A DNA stretch of 7,513 nucleotides from contig JAUWXV010000185.1 in NCBI GenBank assembly GCA_030616165.1, positions 1 through 7,513 on the forward strand, given 5' to 3'. Below are positions 22 to 7,513 of this stretch, one piece after another. This DNA is from a bacterium (GTDB lineage: Bacteria; SM23-31; JAUVVT01). The stretch's first letter is position 1. Every line of letters begins with the position of its first letter. The notes beneath the pieces were generated by a model. It had not been told where the DNA came from, made no database searches, and saw only the letters and a list, made by a program, of their open reading frames with translations. Both the position numbers and the translations under genes were made by a program.

Positions 22-990
22 ATGGATTTTAAAATTTCTCTTGGAAATGTATCAAATAGGGAAGAGTTGGGAGATTGGTATTTTGATTATTCATCGGTAA
101 TTGATTACGTTCAGTCTGGATTTTATGGCAAAATCGATAAAAATGATATTCCTTTAGTGGATTACGATTCATTGTTCAAAAGGAATAAATGGTATTTTAG
201 AAATTACAAAAACACACAATTCGGAGTTCATTATGCACCGACAACGATTGCCCAATACGCCTTTGGTTTATTATATAAATATAACAGAAATGGTGATAAA
301 AAAAAATTAAATTTATTTAAAAAATGTGCAGATTGGTTTGTTGAAAATGTGAAAGATAAAGGAAATTATGGAGTCTGGGAACATACCTGGATAGAACCTG
401 TGTATGATATTAAGCCGCCCTGGATTTCGGCAATGACTCAGGGAGAGGCAATTTCTTTGCTTTTAAGGGCATATCAAATTTTTAGCGAAAGTGAATATTT
501 ATACGCCGCTCAAAAGGCTTTGAATTCTTTTAAAGAAACGAATATCGTTTATACTGATGAAAATAGTAATATCTGGCTTGAAGAGAATCCGATTGCTCCT
601 TCTAATCATATATTAAATGGCTTCATATTTGCACTTTTAGGATTGTTCGATTATTACAGAATAAAAAAGGATAAAGAGAGTTTTTATTTATGGAACGAAG
701 GAATAAAAACACTCGAGAAAAATCTTCATCTTTATGATTCGGGTTATTGGTCAAGGTATGATCTTTTGTTTAAACGTATTACTTCGGAAGTTTATCACAA
801 CATACATATCCATCAGTTAAAGGTTTTAGATAATCTTACTGAATTGAAAGTGTTTTACAATTTTTATAAAAAGTGGGAAAATTATAAAGAGAGCAAAATT
901 TGTTATCTGAAGAGGAAAATAAACGGAAGGATTTATAACAGAATAATAAGTAAACACTTTAATAAAAATTTTAATATTTCAGGGAAGTAA
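22..990 (+). CDS. D-glucuronyl C5-epimerase family protein (GLCE C-terminal domain), start uncertain
   Basis: Predicted to invert C5 of D-glucuronic acid residues within a glycan chain, giving L-iduronic acid. Almost the whole 322-residue product matches the alpha/alpha-barrel C-terminal domain of animal heparan sulfate C5-epimerase as I remember it: TIAQYAFG (75-82), AMTQGEAISLLLRAY (137-151), WLEENP (185-190), a PSNHILNGF block (193-201), LYDSGYWSRYDL (237-248) and YHNIHIHQL (258-266). The beta-sandwich domain of the animal enzyme is absent, as in short bacterial members. Tyr246 and Tyr258 align with two catalytic tyrosines; a third catalytic tyrosine appears replaced by Asn189. A basic tail (about 292-322) extends past the conserved core. 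No signal peptide is visible. The frame is open to the left edge and the ATG has no ribosome binding site, so the true start may lie upstream. The next gene begins 13 bp downstream, suggesting co-transcription. The family call is firm; substrate and activity are inferred. Confidence 0.87.
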   Translation: MDFKISLGNVSNREELGDWYFDYSSVIDYVQSGFYGKIDKNDIPLVDYDSLFKRNKWYFRNYKNTQFGVHYAPTTIAQYAFGLLYKYNRNGDKKKLNLFKKCADWFVENVKDKGNYGVWEHTWIEPVYDIKPPWISAMTQGEAISLLLRAYQIFSESEYLYAAQKALNSFKETNIVYTDENSNIWLEENPIAPSNHILNGFIFALLGLFDYYRIKKDKESFYLWNEGIKTLEKNLHLYDSGYWSRYDLLFKRITSEVYHNIHIHQLKVLDNLTELKVFYNFYKKWENYKESKICYLKRKINGRIYNRIISKHFNKNFNISGK

Positions 991-1003
991 AAAAAGATTG
1001 AAA

Positions 1004-2035
1004 ATGATTAACATTGCTCAGGTAGGATGTGGATATTGGGGACCGAATTTGCTCAGGAATTTTGTTCAGAGCAACAACTGTGATGTTAAAATTGTTGCTG
1101 ATATTAGTGATGAAAGATTAAGTTATGTAAATCGAGTTTATCCATATATAAAGATTACAAAGAGGTATGAAGATATATTAGAGGATAATTCGATTGATGC
1201 GGTTGTATTGGCAACACCTGCGAGTAGTCACTATGAAATATCGGAAAAGATTATCAAAAAAGGGAAACACGTGCTTGTGGAAAAACCACTTGCATTAAAC
1301 ACATCGGAGGTTAGGAATCTTATAACACTTGCTGAAAAATATAGAAGGATATTAATGGTTGGACATACCTTTGAATATAATGCTGCGGTACATGCTTTGA
1401 GAGATTATATTAAGACTGATGAATTGGGTAAGATATATTATATATATTCACAAAGACTGAATTTGGGTAAGGTCAGGGATGACGTAAATGCGATGTGGAA
1501 TCTGGCTCTGCATGATATATCTATTTTACTTTATGTACTGGACTCTGAGCCTGTTTCTGTTTCTGCTAAAGGTGTATCATACATTCAGAGAAATATTGAG
1601 GATGTTGTATTTATAACAATTTTATTTGAAAATGATATAGTTGCACATATTCATGTAAGCTGGCTCGATCCAAATAAAGTGAGAAAAATGACATTTGTCG
1701 GAAGTAAAAAAATGATTGTTTATGACGATATTTCTGATTATAAAATTCGAATTTTCGATAAGGGGATAGATAAAAAAAATATATATGATTCTCTCGGGGA
1801 ATTTGATGATTTCGGAAAGTTTCAGTTGATTCATCGTGCTGGAGATATTTTTATACCAAAAATAAAGTTTGAAGAGCCACTGAAGGTTGAGTGCGAACAT
1901 TTTATTAGTTGTATTCTGAATGGTGAAAAACCTATCTCTGACGGTTATGATGGATTGCGGGTGGTCAATCTACTTGAATCTGCATCAAAGTCCCTTGATG
2001 AAAATGGAAAAGAAATTCTTATCCCAAAAATTTAA
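1004..2035 (+). CDS. Gfo/Idh/MocA family NAD(P)-dependent sugar-nucleotide dehydrogenase
   Basis: Likely oxidises C3 of a UDP-sugar (UDP-GlcNAc or UDP-GlcNAc uronic acid) to a 3-keto intermediate for the aminotransferase encoded next. From ATG 1004 the protein has 343 residues. The N-terminal Rossmann motif GCGYWGPN lies at 8-15. The family signature EKP is at 93-95 with the expected catalytic Lys94, followed by VGHTFEYN at 119-126. LHDIS at about 169-173 carries the conserved His and Asp of the C-terminal substrate domain, and HVSWLDP at about 217-223 is typical of the subfamily annotated in polysaccharide loci. An in-frame TTG at 998 would add two residues. ATG 1004 is preferred because it has an A-rich leader and relatives begin at this Met. 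An AGGGAAG stretch at 981-987, overlapping the preceding stop, sits 10 bp from TTG and 16 bp from ATG, so the start is not fully settled. Exact substrate is unknown; WbpB/WlbA-like and GnnA-like roles both fit. Confidence 0.92.
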   Translation: MINIAQVGCGYWGPNLLRNFVQSNNCDVKIVADISDERLSYVNRVYPYIKITKRYEDILEDNSIDAVVLATPASSHYEISEKIIKKGKHVLVEKPLALNTSEVRNLITLAEKYRRILMVGHTFEYNAAVHALRDYIKTDELGKIYYIYSQRLNLGKVRDDVNAMWNLALHDISILLYVLDSEPVSVSAKGVSYIQRNIEDVVFITILFENDIVAHIHVSWLDPNKVRKMTFVGSKKMIVYDDISDYKIRIFDKGIDKKNIYDSLGEFDDFGKFQLIHRAGDIFIPKIKFEEPLKVECEHFISCILNGEKPISDGYDGLRVVNLLESASKSLDENGKEILIPKI

Positions 2036-2064: not shown

Positions 2065-3159
2065 ATGCAAATACCTCTTGTAGATTTAAAAGCACAGTAT
2101 TTATCAATAAAAGAAGAAATAGATAATGCGATAAAAGAAGTTATAGAGAGTTCTTCTTTTATTCTTGGAGAGAAATTAGAGAAATTTGAGCGCGAATTTG
2201 CAGAATTTTGTGGAGTCAGATTTGCAGTCGGAACAAGTTCAGGCACTACGGCACTCCATCTTGCTTTACTTGGGCTTGGTATTGGGAAAAATGATGAAGT
2301 GATAACTGTTCCCAATACCTTCATTGCAACTGCAGAAGCAATATCTCACAGTGGTGCAGGAGTTAGATTCGTTGACATTAATGAAAGGTCTTATACAATA
2401 GATGTAGAAAAAATAGAAAGCGCAGTTAATGAAAGAACCAGAGCAATTATCCCCGTTCATTTGTATGGTCAACCAGCAGATATGAACCCTATTAGTGAAA
2501 TTGCAGGGAAATATAATCTTAAAGTTATTGAGGACGCGGCACAGGCTCATAATGGGGAATATAAGAATAGGCGCGTAGGTTCGCTGGGAGATGAGGGGTG
2601 TTTTAGTTTTTTTCCTGGTAAAAATTTAGGCGCTTATGGTGATGCTGGAATTGTTGTTACGAATGATGAAGATGTTGCCGAAAATATTAAGTTATTAAGG
2701 AATCACGGAAGAAAGGAAAAAAATACACATATTATCGAGGGATATAATTACAGAATGGATGAAATCCAGGCGGCTATATTATCGGTGAAATTAAAATATC
2801 TTAATGATTGGACTAACAAAAGAAGAAATAATGCTCATCTTTATAATGATTTTTTATCAGGCTCTGAAATTATTATCCCGGAGGAAATGAGTTATGCCAA
2901 ACATGTTTATCACATATACGCAATAAGGACGAAAAACAGAAATGAAATCAGGGAAAAATTGAAAAAAAATAATATTTCAACAGGAATACATTATCCGGTT
3001 CCTTTGCATTTACAGCCTTCTTATAAATATTTAAATTATAAAAGAGGTGACTTTCCTATAACAGAAAATATTTCTGAAGAAATATTTTCATTACCGATAT
3101 ACCCGGAATTAACAGAGAAACAAATTAAATTTATATCAGAATTAATAATAAATCCTTAA
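2065..3159 (+). CDS. DegT/DnrJ/EryC1/StrS family PLP-dependent sugar aminotransferase
   Basis: Predicted cytoplasmic enzyme that transfers an amino group, usually from glutamate, to a keto-sugar nucleotide. At 364 residues it is full length for the family. It opens with the typical [10 protein letters not shown] (3-12). [13 protein letters not shown] (56-68) contributes to cofactor phosphate binding. EDAAQAH (156-162) carries the Asp (157) expected to contact the pyridine nitrogen, and [15 protein letters not shown] (181-195) contains the Schiff-base Lys186. [12 protein letters not shown] (226-237) and the C-terminal [12 protein letters not shown] block (307-318) are also family hallmarks. 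The residue after AQAH is Asn rather than the usual Gly. The motifs resemble 3-aminotransferases such as WbpE, GnnB and QdtB; the preceding dehydrogenase makes a C3-amino product the best guess. ATG 2065 has a weak GGGA four bases upstream of its leader, and lies 29 bp after the dehydrogenase gene. The family is certain; the sugar is inferred from context. Confidence 0.95.
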
Positions 3160-3175
3160 TAAAATTTAACTTGGA

Positions 3176-4513
3176 ATGGAAAAGAAAGTTCTAATCATAA
3201 GTTATTATTTCCCACCTATTGGCGGTGCTGGAACTATGCGTGTTTTGAAATTTATGAAATACCTCCCATCTTTTAATTGGGAACCATTTGTTTTAACTGT
3301 GAAAAGTCCTTATTCTTATATGAAAGATAATTCTATCGAAAAGGAAATAAAAAACAATAAAAACATATTTTATACCAGCGCTTTACTATTAGGTAATTTT
3401 TTCAGGAGATTTTTCAAATATAAACCTAAAATTAATATTAATAATAATAAAAAGGTAGGATTATTAAAGACTATTTTTGAAATATTTAAAAGGATTTTCA
3501 TTTTTTTTAAAAACATTTTTTATACTCTTTTTTTTTGTCCGGATGAATATATTGGATGGATTCCCTTTGCAGTAACAAAGGGTATGAAAATCATTAAAGA
3601 AAAAGAGATAGACATTATATTTACTTCCGGCCCTCCAAATTCCGTGCACCTGATAGGTTTATTATTGAAAAAAATTACCGGTAAAAAATGGGTAATTGAT
3701 TGTCGTGATTTATGGAATCAATATTGCTTGAACTACAATCCTTATAATATCAGAATAAAAAGTAAAATTGACGAATATATGGAACGTGCTGTTGTGATTA
3801 ATTCTGATAGAATTATAGTAGTTTCTGATACAATGAAAAACCAGCTTCTGGAAAGATTTCCTTATATAAAAAATGAAAAATTTACAGTTATTACAAATGG
3901 ATATGACCCGTCAGATTTTGAAAATATAGTTCCTTTTACGTATAAAAAGAAATTTGTTATTATTCATTATGGAACATTGTTTAGATGGAGAAAACCTGAT
4001 AATTTTTTTAAAGCATTAAAAAATGTTATTTATAAAAATGTGGATTTTAGAGATGATATTTTAGTAGTATTTATGGGAATAATACACGAAAATACTTTAA
4101 AGTATGTTGATTCGTTGGGATTAAATTCATATTTAGAAATCATAAATTATAAACCTTATTATGAAAGTTTGCAATATTTAAAGGGTGCAAACATTTTTCT
4201 ATTGATTCCTGGAGAACTTACTTTTAATAAAAATATGCTGACAGCAAAATTATTTGATTATATAGGCGCCAGAAAGCCAATTTTAGCATTGATTGTAGAT
4301 GGTGCATTAAAAGATTTAATTGAAAAATATTCACTGGGGATTGCTGTATATAATGATAATATTGACGAGATTGAAAATGCAATTTATAAATTTTATCTTG
4401 ATTTTAAATTAAAGAAAGATACATACAATCCGAAAGATTGTTCTGCGTTTGAAAGAAAGTTTATAACAAAACGACTTTCTGAATTATTAGATGATGTGAA
4501 AAAAAATAATTAA
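3176..4513 (+). CDS. GT-B fold glycosyltransferase, family-4-like
   Basis: Likely adds a sugar from a nucleotide donor to a lipid-linked repeat unit at the inner face of the membrane. The 445-residue protein shows an N-terminal Rossmann-like domain with SYYFPPIGGAG (9-19), a PDEYIGWIPFA motif (122-132), TSGPPNSVHL (150-159) and VIDCRDLW (173-180), as in GT4-type enzymes that begin with this glycine-rich loop. The C-terminal donor domain starts near NGYD (241-244) and includes HYGTLFRW (264-271), FMG (299-301) and AKLFDYIGARKPILAL (357-372), the usual donor-binding region. An Asn/Lys-rich stretch (about 84-93) leads into a basic, aromatic-rich hydrophobic segment (about 97-120) that could lie on the membrane. 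That segment is encoded by T8 (3501-3508) and T9 (3528-3536) runs. The gene sits 16 bp after the aminotransferase gene, with no Shine-Dalgarno sequence. Donor and acceptor cannot be read from sequence. Confidence 0.92.
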   Translation: MEKKVLIISYYFPPIGGAGTMRVLKFMKYLPSFNWEPFVLTVKSPYSYMKDNSIEKEIKNNKNIFYTSALLLGNFFRRFFKYKPKININNNKKVGLLKTIFEIFKRIFIFFKNIFYTLFFCPDEYIGWIPFAVTKGMKIIKEKEIDIIFTSGPPNSVHLIGLLLKKITGKKWVIDCRDLWNQYCLNYNPYNIRIKSKIDEYMERAVVINSDRIIVVSDTMKNQLLERFPYIKNEKFTVITNGYDPSDFENIVPFTYKKKFVIIHYGTLFRWRKPDNFFKALKNVIYKNVDFRDDILVVFMGIIHENTLKYVDSLGLNSYLEIINYKPYYESLQYLKGANIFLLIPGELTFNKNMLTAKLFDYIGARKPILALIVDGALKDLIEKYSLGIAVYNDNIDEIENAIYKFYLDFKLKKDTYNPKDCSAFERKFITKRLSELLDDVKKNN

Positions 4514-4531: not shown

Positions 4532-6049
4532 ATGAAAATATATTATTCTAAAATTTTAAAAAAGAGAATAGAATTATTATATATTGGTTTTTTTTCAATA
4601 TTATTTTTCATATTTTTTCTTTTCACAGAAATATTTGGTGTTATAGAAGCTTTAAAAATTTTATTAGGATTAATTACCGCAGGTGGAGTTTTTTATCTTG
4701 TATCTAAAAAAAATATATATGGTCTCTGGTTTTTATTAATATTGTTTTATTTTATACCATATTCGAGCCCTGATTATCTTGCTCGTGTAGGGGAAAAGTC
4801 ATATTTTTCTTTATTTGAGAGATTTAACAGCACATTTTGTATTTGGGATGTTCTTATATTTTCACTTGCAGCATTTTTAATAATTAATAGACTCGTAAAA
4901 GGAAAGTTAAAATTTGTTGGTATTCAATACAAGGAAATCAGATTATATATATATTTAATGATATTTGCATTTATAAATGGATTTTTACACGTTTCCGGGA
5001 GTTTTCTTTCCTTTGGTCCAACAGAATTTTTAAGACCGATAATAAGTTTTATGCCTTTTTTTTATCTGATTTTTATGTATCTTTTGACTATCAATCTAAT
5101 CGAATCAAAGAAGGACTTGGATAGAACTTATGATTTTATTTGGATATTAACAATATTGTTAATTTTTTACGGTATTTATCGGCTTATTGGAATATTATCA
5201 GGTAGTTTTGATGCTTTGATGATGTTTGGGCTTCCTATGATACTATATGACCAGATGTCATTAATTTTTTATCCGATTTTTCTCTATATTTCACTATATT
5301 TGTTAAAAGTAAAATCAAAGAAAAAAAATATTATTGTTGCTTTTTCACTTTTTCTTATAATATTATCAAGTACAAGAAGGTTTAATTATTTGATTCTAAT
5401 TTCTGGATTTTTTATTACCTTGTTTTTGATTCATAAAGTGAAAAGGATTGGTTTAGGTGTAATTGTTAAAAATTTTTTAAAGATTTTAATTTTTTTATTA
5501 ATAATTTTTTTAGTAATAATACTTTTACTTCCGGATTTTGTTATAGGTGTTTACGATTCGGTAAAGTCAATATACTTTTTGTCTGAATATAGTTTATCGT
5601 ATGGTGGTAACATAAGAAAAGCAGAACTGGAAAATATGTTCCTTAATATGAATAAAAGAAAATATTCTTATCTCGTTGGTTATGGTTTGGGCACAAGATG
5701 GGAGGCGATTGTTGATATTTCTTTTGGTGCTCTGGATTATGACAAAAAAGAAGTAAATAAAGGTATAAACTGGTGGCCACAATTTCATCTGCCTTATATT
5801 TCTTTGATTTATGTTTATGGTATTTTGGGATTTTTGTTAATGTTATTTATTGTATTTATGTTTTTAAAAAGGTCTGTCTATTTCATTAAAAAATTCGAAA
5901 ATAAGAAATATTATCAAGCTCAGATTATTGCAATAACCTCCTATTTAGTACTTACAATGTTTTTTTTAGGGGGTAGTTTCAATCCGACAAGTGCAATATT
6001 TTGTGGAGTATTATACGGTTTGCGAGTTTCAATGGTTAAATATTGTTGA
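4532..6049 (+). CDS. O-antigen polymerase/ligase-like polytopic membrane protein (Wzy/WaaL type)
   Basis: Probably joins repeat units into a polymer on the outer face of the inner membrane, or ligates the glycan to an acceptor. The 505-residue protein is strongly hydrophobic, with about 12-14 likely membrane segments (for example 17-37, 61-78, 104-121, 136-156, 166-187, 200-222, 264-300, 314-337, 419-446 and 463-500). A large extracytoplasmic loop of about 80 residues (338-418) precedes the last helices. LSSTRR at 278-283 matches the S-x-SR-like region of the Wzy_C/O-antigen ligase family, and VGYGLGTRW (382-390) is the short G-x-G-rich motif usual in the big loop, followed by an aromatic/His stretch (WWPQFHLPY, 414-422) and YGILG (429-433). 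Primary sequence does not separate polymerase from ligase; a place between glycosyltransferases in a repeat-unit cluster favours polymerase. The base composition is very AT-rich, as is common for wzy genes. ATG 4532 has an A-rich leader, 18 bp after the preceding gene. Confidence 0.87.
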   Translation: MKIYYSKILKKRIELLYIGFFSILFFIFFLFTEIFGVIEALKILLGLITAGGVFYLVSKKNIYGLWFLLILFYFIPYSSPDYLARVGEKSYFSLFERFNSTFCIWDVLIFSLAAFLIINRLVKGKLKFVGIQYKEIRLYIYLMIFAFINGFLHVSGSFLSFGPTEFLRPIISFMPFFYLIFMYLLTINLIESKKDLDRTYDFIWILTILLIFYGIYRLIGILSGSFDALMMFGLPMILYDQMSLIFYPIFLYISLYLLKVKSKKKNIIVAFSLFLIILSSTRRFNYLILISGFFITLFLIHKVKRIGLGVIVKNFLKILIFLLIIFLVIILLLPDFVIGVYDSVKSIYFLSEYSLSYGGNIRKAELENMFLNMNKRKYSYLVGYGLGTRWEAIVDISFGALDYDKKEVNKGINWWPQFHLPYISLIYVYGILGFLLMLFIVFMFLKRSVYFIKKFENKKYYQAQIIAITSYLVLTMFFLGGSFNPTSAIFCGVLYGLRVSMVKYC

Positions 6050-6247: not shown

Positions 6248-7147
6248 ATGATATATAAAGATTCTGCAAGTTATCAGGAAAAAATAAAAAAGGAGGCGGA
6301 ATTCTGGGACAGCAAGATTACTCCTTATCATTATTATGATAAAAATAAAAAAACTGAAAGACCAGTTTATATGTGGGATGATGAGGAAGTGAATAATTTG
6401 CTAAGGGGAAAATATTTATTTGAAATAATAAATACCGGGAAAACGACTGCTGGAAATGTACTTGATTTGGGATGTGGAAAGGGAGTTTTATGCTATGAGA
6501 TATCAAAAGGGAATAAGGATAGGGAAATTTGGGGAATAGATATAAGCAAAAAGAGAATCGAACTTGCAAGAGAATTTTATGACAGCAGAAAGGATAAGCA
6601 AAATCTTTCTAAGATAATATATAAAATTGATGATTTGAGTTTGTGTGATTTGCCGGAGGATTACTTTGAATTTGTTTATGTGTGGGATACTCTGCATCAT
6701 ATACCAGAAATAGAGCATTTAATATCGGAAACTTATAAATCTTTAAAGCAGAATATGTCATTTTTTGTATTTGATCATATAGGGAAGTCTAAGATTGGCT
6801 GGTTGATTTATATTGTTTTGTGGTTAATTCTGCCAACTTATGATTCTTATGGAGAAAAAATAAAAAAGATTGTGAATAAATTTTTTAGGAAAGAATCAAT
6901 TGATAAAAATGGTCTTAGAAGTCCTTTTGAGGATGTGTCTTGTGAAAGGATTGTTGGTGCTATAAAGAAGTATTTCAAGGTTCAATCGATAACATATCTT
7001 TTAGCTTTTAATCATTATTTGATTCCAAAACTGCGGATAAAAAAGACAGGTGGTTTGATTAAATTTTTGGTGTTTGCTGAGAATTTGCTGATTAAGTTTA
7101 ATTTTTTAAAGCCTGAGTATGTTTATATAAAGGCAATAAAGCAGTAA
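6248..7147 (+). CDS. Class I SAM-dependent methyltransferase
   Basis: Likely methylates a sugar hydroxyl, or another small group, of the glycan or its precursor using S-adenosylmethionine. The 299-residue protein carries motif I VLDLGCGKG (71-79), the acidic end of strand beta2 in WGIDIS (95-100), a post-II region KIDDLSLCDLP (126-136) and motif WDTLHHIPE (146-154), typical of Methyltransf_11/25-type enzymes. After FDHIGKSK (175-182) a hydrophobic stretch (about 184-197) ends in a Pro; similar stretches occur in the polysaccharide-locus relatives and need not span a membrane. The C-terminal part (224-299) is family-like but not diagnostic. A stop at 6239-6241 in the same frame makes ATG 6248 the first available ATG; there is no Shine-Dalgarno sequence. 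Spacers of 198 and 104 bp on either side set it apart from the tight operon upstream. A chain-capping or repeat-decorating role is possible; the acceptor is unknown. Confidence 0.9.
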   Translation: MIYKDSASYQEKIKKEAEFWDSKITPYHYYDKNKKTERPVYMWDDEEVNNLLRGKYLFEIINTGKTTAGNVLDLGCGKGVLCYEISKGNKDREIWGIDISKKRIELAREFYDSRKDKQNLSKIIYKIDDLSLCDLPEDYFEFVYVWDTLHHIPEIEHLISETYKSLKQNMSFFVFDHIGKSKIGWLIYIVLWLILPTYDSYGEKIKKIVNKFFRKESIDKNGLRSPFEDVSCERIVGAIKKYFKVQSITYLLAFNHYLIPKLRIKKTGGLIKFLVFAENLLIKFNFLKPEYVYIKAIKQ

Positions 7148-7251: not shown

Positions 7252-7513
7252 GTGAATGAAAAAAATAGACCTAAAATTTATATTGTATTATTAAACTGGA
7301 ACGGATATAATTTAACGAGAGAGTGTATTTTGTCACTTTTAGATATAAAATATACTAATTATCAAATCGTTACTGTAGATAACGGTTCAGATGATGATTC
7401 ATATTCGAAATTATACGGAGAATTCAGTGAAAAGGTAGATTTTATAAAAAATGAAAAGAATTTGGGTTTTGCAGAATGTAATAATGCTGGTATTAAATAT
7501 TCCGTTGAACAAG
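7252..7513 (+). CDS. GT-A family-2 glycosyltransferase, 5' part only (rhamnosyltransferase-like)
   Basis: The gene runs off the right edge; 87 codons are visible. The product opens with IVLLNWNG (11-18) and NLTRECILSLL (20-30), continues with VTVDNGSDDDS (40-50) and then NEKNLGFAECNNAGI (67-81). This is the nucleotide-binding half of GT2 enzymes of the WbbL/rhamnosyltransferase type: the Asp of VDNGSDD contacts the nucleotide, and N-x-G-F-A-x-x-N-N is the subfamily hallmark. The DxD-like metal motif and acceptor region lie outside the window. It probably adds a deoxyhexose such as rhamnose to the repeat unit, but the donor is inferred only from subfamily resemblance. In this frame an upstream stop (7234-7236) leaves GTG 7252 as the only usual start codon before the conserved region. 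An ATG at 7256 is in the wrong frame and would fit only if the A7 tract at 7259-7265 had one more A. Confidence 0.88.
   Translation, partial: MNEKNRPKIYIVLLNWNGYNLTRECILSLLDIKYTNYQIVTVDNGSDDDSYSKLYGEFSEKVDFIKNEKNLGFAECNNAGIKYSVEQ

Follow-up and report, generated by a model that had tools for sequence, protein, structure and literature searches.

Introduction

In animals, conversion of glucuronic to iduronic acid within heparan sulfate is carried out by the D-glucuronyl C5-epimerase GLCE (PDB 6HZZ, 6I01, 4PXQ). It combines a helical catalytic domain with N-terminal β-hairpin and β-sandwich domains. Tyr578 of the human enzyme serves as the base and Glu499 as the acid (review PMC12834895), and the key catalytic residues have been listed as Glu499, Tyr500, Asn510, Tyr560 and Tyr578 (PMC13308652). 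An enzyme from Bermanella is bacterial, carries out the same type of reaction and is said to be related in sequence to human GLCE (PMC4432689, PMC12834895). It is the one characterised bacterial GLCE-type epimerase that we found named in the literature, its native glycan is not known, and the family is widespread in candidate phyla. The C5-epimerase Agl32 of Halobacterium salinarum consists of one helical domain and modifies its glycan while this is still lipid-linked and not yet moved across the membrane; it is reported to superpose poorly on GLCE (5.0 Å over 184 residues) and to lack the GLCE catalytic residues (PMC13308652). The nucleotide sugar UDP-GlcNAc3NAcA is made by the WbpABED enzymes of Pseudomonas and by the gna/dgaABC products of Acinetobacter (PMC10622841, PMC9676051). 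Tying PF06662 members to such a sugar-nucleotide pathway and to a partner glycosyltransferase would give a concrete guess at their substrate, and small single-domain epimerases would serve the production of L-uronic acid glycans.

Here we have analysed a stretch of 7,513 nucleotides (the window), which is a complete contig (C230 of genome G000) from a 3.74 Mb, 343-contig assembly that is 90% complete. Our main reading, to which we assign a probability of roughly 0.6, is that its first gene encodes a stand-alone PF06662 C5-epimerase of a Wzx/Wzy-type surface polysaccharide, acting on a uronic acid bound in the glycan; its activity, substrate and compartment are what we infer. The protein is an added member of a known family and not a new kind of system.

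Results

A single-domain GLCE-type protein

The window carries the following genes, all on the forward strand.

22..990, +: PF06662 uronosyl C5-epimerase catalytic domain protein (Pfam, human GLCE match, structure model)
998..2035, +: Gfo/Idh/MocA sugar-nucleotide oxidoreductase, UDP-GlcNAc(A) 3-dehydrogenase-like (PF01408/PF22725; NF040723)
2065..3159, +: DegT/DnrJ/EryC1 PLP aminotransferase of the sugar 3-aminotransferase type, QdtB/WbpE-like (PF01041, E 1.2e-123)
3176..4513, +: GT4-like glycosyltransferase (PF13439/PF00534; adjacency count)
4532..6049, +: candidate Wzy-like polymerase with 11 predicted transmembrane segments (hydropathy only)
6248..7147, +: SAM-dependent methyltransferase (PF13847, E 1.3e-14)
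7252..7513, +: GT2 glycosyltransferase, truncated where the contig stops (PF00535, E 2.3e-10)

The epimerase reading frame encodes 322 residues counted from Met22, amounting to a single helical catalytic domain alone. The sequence-only reading had recognised the catalytic domain of the GLCE family, lacking the additional parts of the animal enzyme, and had proposed a profile search and a model superposition as checks. Both were run and bear it out. The protein matches PF06662 (C5-epim_C) over profile positions 3-187 of 188 with an E of 1.1e-43 and 149.3 bits, well above the curated cut-off of 23.3, and its only strong sequence matches in the PDB are human GLCE (6hzz, phmmer E 2.9e-29) and zebrafish GLCE (4pw2, E 1e-27). 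The AlphaFold model (pLDDT 92.7, built on a 57-sequence alignment) finds GLCE entries as its closest solved structures in Foldseek, all at an E of about 1e-11, and superposes on GLCE with a Z score of 32.6 and 2.6 Å over 271 residues, the next fold reaching Z 16. Chance similarity is ruled out by the profile match, the GLCE sequence match and this Z score, and an AGE-family or GH76 identity was rejected, those folds scoring Z 14-16 against 32.6 for GLCE. The signature motifs of the animal enzyme that the sequence-only reading named are all in place (AMTQG at residue 137, LNGF at 198, LYDSG at 237, YDL at 246 and YHNIHIHQL at 258).

The window epimerase thus shares with animal GLCE the helical catalytic domain and the equivalents of Glu499, Asn510, Tyr560 and Tyr578, and lacks both β-domains. 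Their absence is taken as real, because any loss at the contig edge would, to judge from relatives, amount to only some 20-40 residues, too few to make up these domains. The Bermanella enzyme could be likened to it by published description only. Agl32 provides a precedent for the compartment proposed below; unlike Agl32, the window epimerase has the GLCE fold and most of its catalytic residues.

Neighbouring genes and a second contig

The earlier view of the surroundings as a polysaccharide gene cluster holds, with oxidoreductase, aminotransferase, GT4, polymerase-like, methyltransferase and GT2 genes all present. For the oxidoreductase, the best NCBIfam model is NF040723 (UDP-GlcNAc 3-dehydrogenase), with an E of 1.6e-51 but far below the curated cut-off. 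The PDB chain 3q2k, which we take to be WlbA-like, matches it at 3e-8 in the Rossmann part only. The gene is listed from TTG 998, and ATG 1004, preceded by 'agggaag', is a likely alternative start. The aminotransferase matches QdtB (3frk, 6e-114) and WbpE (3nyu, 1e-76). The GT4 protein has no PDB sequence match at 0.001, and the polymerase candidate at 4532..6049 has no Pfam match.

A second contig of the same genome (C164, 7.2 kb) carries a QdtC/WbpD-like hexapeptide (LbH) N-acetyltransferase gene, with no other strong candidate elsewhere in the genome, which overlaps a UDP-HexNAc 6-dehydrogenase gene; reading of the translations names the flanking genes as Wza/Wzz-like and Wzx-like. All four enzyme types of the UDP-GlcNAc3NAcA pathway (6-dehydrogenase, 3-oxidoreductase, 3-aminotransferase and LbH N-acetyltransferase) are therefore present as candidates in one genome, but they are split between the 7.5 kb window contig (oxidoreductase and aminotransferase) and C164 (N-acetyltransferase and dehydrogenase). 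Judged by sequence, the two contigs are candidate complementary halves of this pathway and of a Wzx/Wzy export system. An end-to-end join of C164 and C230 is unproven, the end of C164 being non-coding with G/C-rich inverted repeats and no overlap visible by eye. Compared with the Wbp and Dga pathways, the oxidoreductase here seems, by these matches, to resemble UDP-GlcNAc 3-dehydrogenase more than WlbA, and a C5-epimerase is added. A second oxidoreductase of this type, on contig C141, was discarded as a pathway partner, since on our own reading of the genes it sits in a pseudaminate-like cluster.

We found no match to TIGR00236, the model for a WecB/WbpI-type 2-epimerase, in the 90%-complete genome, while the control was positive in 11 of 14 cases. 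Lacking this enzyme, the genome is unlikely to follow the route through ManNAc3NAcA to L-GulNAc3NAcA, so that the nucleotide pathway would stop at gluco-configured GlcNAc3NAcA, from which C5 inversion would yield an L-ido product.

Relatives and their gene neighbourhoods

A scan of 84,980 species genomes with one pattern gave 223 confirmed PF06662 relatives, 80 of which were kept; in a sample of 60 genomes, four had a protein above the PF06662 cut-off. The relatives come often from candidate division KSB1, Latescibacterota, Calditrichota, Ignavibacteriota and Bacteroidota, and less so from Bacillota, Actinomycetota, Chloroflexota and archaea. A quick tree, whose deep branches are weakly supported, places the window epimerase nearest to L013 (Bacterium HR37), L017, L014, L023 and L021, and joins the animal GLCE domain to a Bacillus protein (SH-aLRT 99). 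This protein (Bacillus pinisoli, L053:9722-10744) marks a bacterial lineage close to GLCE, and its locus holds a sugar-nucleotide dehydrogenase homologue and ABC-transporter-like genes.

Homologues (100 bits or more) of the window GT4, which sits three genes downstream of the epimerase, occupy 15 of 149 gene slots immediately beside an epimerase, against 2 of 775 slots further away (p 7e-11, a value that overstates independence as some loci are close kin, although the label still needs several changes on the tree). Strong homologues of the window oxidoreductase occur in four of the five loci near the window in the tree (the window, L010, L013 and L017; not L021) and in 1 of the 74 others, with a p of 1.6e-5 for a five-locus neighbourhood that was picked from the tree after the labels had been seen and compared among PF06662 loci only. 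The window oxidoreductase is 42-54% identical to its counterparts in L010, L013 and L017. In L013, the nearest relative, the whole set stands together, a dehydrogenase being followed by epimerase, oxidoreductase, LbH N-acetyltransferase and DegT aminotransferase, and the two C164 enzymes are 53% (LbH) and 51% (dehydrogenase) identical to their L013 counterparts. L083 has, in order, a 6-dehydrogenase, an oxidoreductase-LbH fusion, a 2-epimerase, a DegT aminotransferase and then the epimerase. The fusion (L083:4837-6507) naturally joins a Gfo/Idh oxidoreductase to a hexapeptide N-acetyltransferase and so links two pathway steps. L010 carries oxidoreductase, aminotransferase and 2-epimerase, the last being found also in L072 and L083; L072 is the weaker pathway match, its oxidoreductase being only 22% identical.

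Which uronic acid may be epimerised

The substrate would be a D-configured uronic acid already within the glycan, and the product its L-epimer. This could be GlcA, giving L-IdoA, or 2,3-diacetamido-2,3-dideoxy-D-GlcA, giving the L-ido-configured sugar, and the neighbouring genes slightly favour the latter. The sequence-only reading had proposed a surface glycan with L-iduronate or a similar sugar and had taken heparosan activity to be plausible from the Bermanella precedent. Of the first claim, family, fold and residues all fit an epimerised uronic acid, but GlcA is one option only, as the GlcNAc3NAcA genes fit too. The second transfers poorly, because GLCE groups with a Bacillus protein elsewhere in the tree. 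Heparosan is also a poor guide to the substrate since the genes next to the epimerase look like those for UDP-GlcNAc 3-dehydrogenase and 3-aminotransferase. Nothing in the window points to the synthesis or sulfation of heparosan.

The strongest competing explanation is a plain GlcA to IdoA epimerase that acts on ordinary glucuronic acid in the repeat unit, like GLCE and the Bermanella enzyme, with the oxidoreductase and aminotransferase supplying a different, unconnected amino sugar to this unit. We consider it a serious contender, if somewhat short of even odds. The active site is GLCE-like, a UDP-glucose 6-dehydrogenase (AglM/TuaD-like) is encoded on contig C146, so that ordinary GlcA should be available and L-IdoA a possible product, and the oxidoreductase/aminotransferase set is absent from most of the PF06662 loci examined. 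The window itself, however, has no gene supplying glucuronate, and the nearest relatives L013 and L010 have just this set beside their epimerase.

The pair could also be of the GnnA/GnnB kind. Its product would then be UDP-GlcNAc3N, which is no uronic acid, destined for lipid A or a neutral sugar, while the epimerase acts elsewhere. The window oxidoreductase is indeed nearest to UDP-GlcNAc 3-dehydrogenase models and not to 3q2k, but the genes around it are a Wzy-like gene and glycosyltransferases and not lipid A genes, and L083 has a similar pair together with a UDP-HexNAc 6-dehydrogenase and a 2-epimerase. We regard this explanation as rather unlikely.

The most specific form of the diacetamido proposal holds that the lipid-linked 2,3-diacetamido-2,3-dideoxy-D-GlcA is turned into its L-ido form, that the Tyr500 to Asn change described below is part of an altered pocket, and that a wider bacterial PF06662 set (L010, L013, L083) is paired with the same pathway; as a whole this is tentative and, on present evidence, doubtful.

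The active site and Asn189

Residues were compared by aligning 85 homologues to the GLCE domain, which places the active-site codons of the window epimerase as follows.

583..588, +: Glu188 (GLCE Glu499, catalytic acid/base) and Asn189 (GLCE Tyr500, substituted; codon AAT), from the 85-homologue alignment and the codon
616..618, +: Asn199 (GLCE Asn510), from the same alignment
757..759, +: Tyr246 (GLCE Tyr560), from the same alignment
793..795, +: Tyr258 (GLCE Tyr578, catalytic base), from the same alignment; role according to PMC12834895

Four of the five listed GLCE residues are thus kept (E188, N199, Y246 and Y258). Among the 85 homologues, Glu499 is conserved in 84, Asn510 in 73 (Asp in 11), Tyr560 in 79 and Tyr578 in 83. 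In the proposed mechanism, Tyr258 and Glu188 would stand on opposite faces of C5 and reversibly remove and return its proton.

The exception is the GLCE block 'WYEEYP', which is incompletely kept, Asn189 standing where animal GLCE has Tyr500. This position is Tyr in 64 of the 85 proteins, Phe in 10 and Cys in 4, with Trp, Val, Thr, Gly and Met also occurring; Asn is found solely in the window epimerase. The Asn codon is one base away from Tyr (AAT versus TAT), and it may reflect a real change, a sequencing error or decay. The same genome has a second PF06662 gene (L003:9038-9889), 37% identical and with EEYP intact, at the end of contig C4 beside a Wzx-like flippase and a glycosyltransferase.

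Should the substitution abolish epimerisation, the protein would be decaying or merely glycan-binding. The uniqueness of Asn and the intact paralogue on C4 speak for such a loss, while the frame is intact with no other key residue changed, and Phe, Cys or Trp in the homologues suggests that the position is tolerant, with Val, Thr, Gly and Met likewise occurring in relatives. An impaired enzyme is accordingly improbable in our judgement.

Other active-site variants occur in the family. Asp in place of Asn510 defines a subfamily (L051, L055, L059, L062 and L080; also L054, L057, L060 and L064), some members of which have Phe for Tyr560. Its Bacteroidota and Ignavibacteriota loci have the order GT4, epimerase and asparagine-synthase-like amidotransferase, which suggests a uronamide-forming module. 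In Dictyobacter vulcani (L052:9845-12082), PF06662 is fused to a glycosyltransferase (PF00534) and the catalytic tyrosines are replaced by Thr and Gln.

The N-terminus and the site of action

The probable site of action is the cytoplasm, where the epimerase would modify the undecaprenyl-linked repeat unit once the neighbouring glycosyltransferases have acted. That a lipid-linked intermediate is modified inside the cell, as suggested earlier, is plausible in so far as no hydrophobic leader or signal peptide follows Met22; the argument is weakened by the start itself. The reading frame stays open to base 1 of the contig, and L013, L014, L017, L035, L046 and L056 have 20-40 extra N-terminal residues ahead of the conserved 'GYYxDF', so that Met22 is perhaps not the true start. 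It may be internal, with the N-terminus cut by the contig edge, and the claim that a signal peptide is missing stands from Met22 onwards only.

It is very unlikely that the enzyme acts after export, on the completed polymer in the periplasm or beyond it, by means of a signal sequence encoded before the start of the contig. A hydrophobic N-terminus does occur in about 18 of the 85 homologues, and some are fused to cell-wall or secretion domains, but the nearest relatives L010, L013, L017 and L021 have no hydrophobic N-terminal segment.

Secreted-looking PF06662 proteins include L079:9830-13236, L061:2393-4564 and L072:7445-10729. Proteins of this kind vary in their additional parts, one having a CHU_C/FlgD-Ig tail and one a weak glucosaminidase match with Y_Y_Y repeats, and Alkalihalobacillus has two tandem PF06662 copies, one with CWB2 cell-wall binding repeats.
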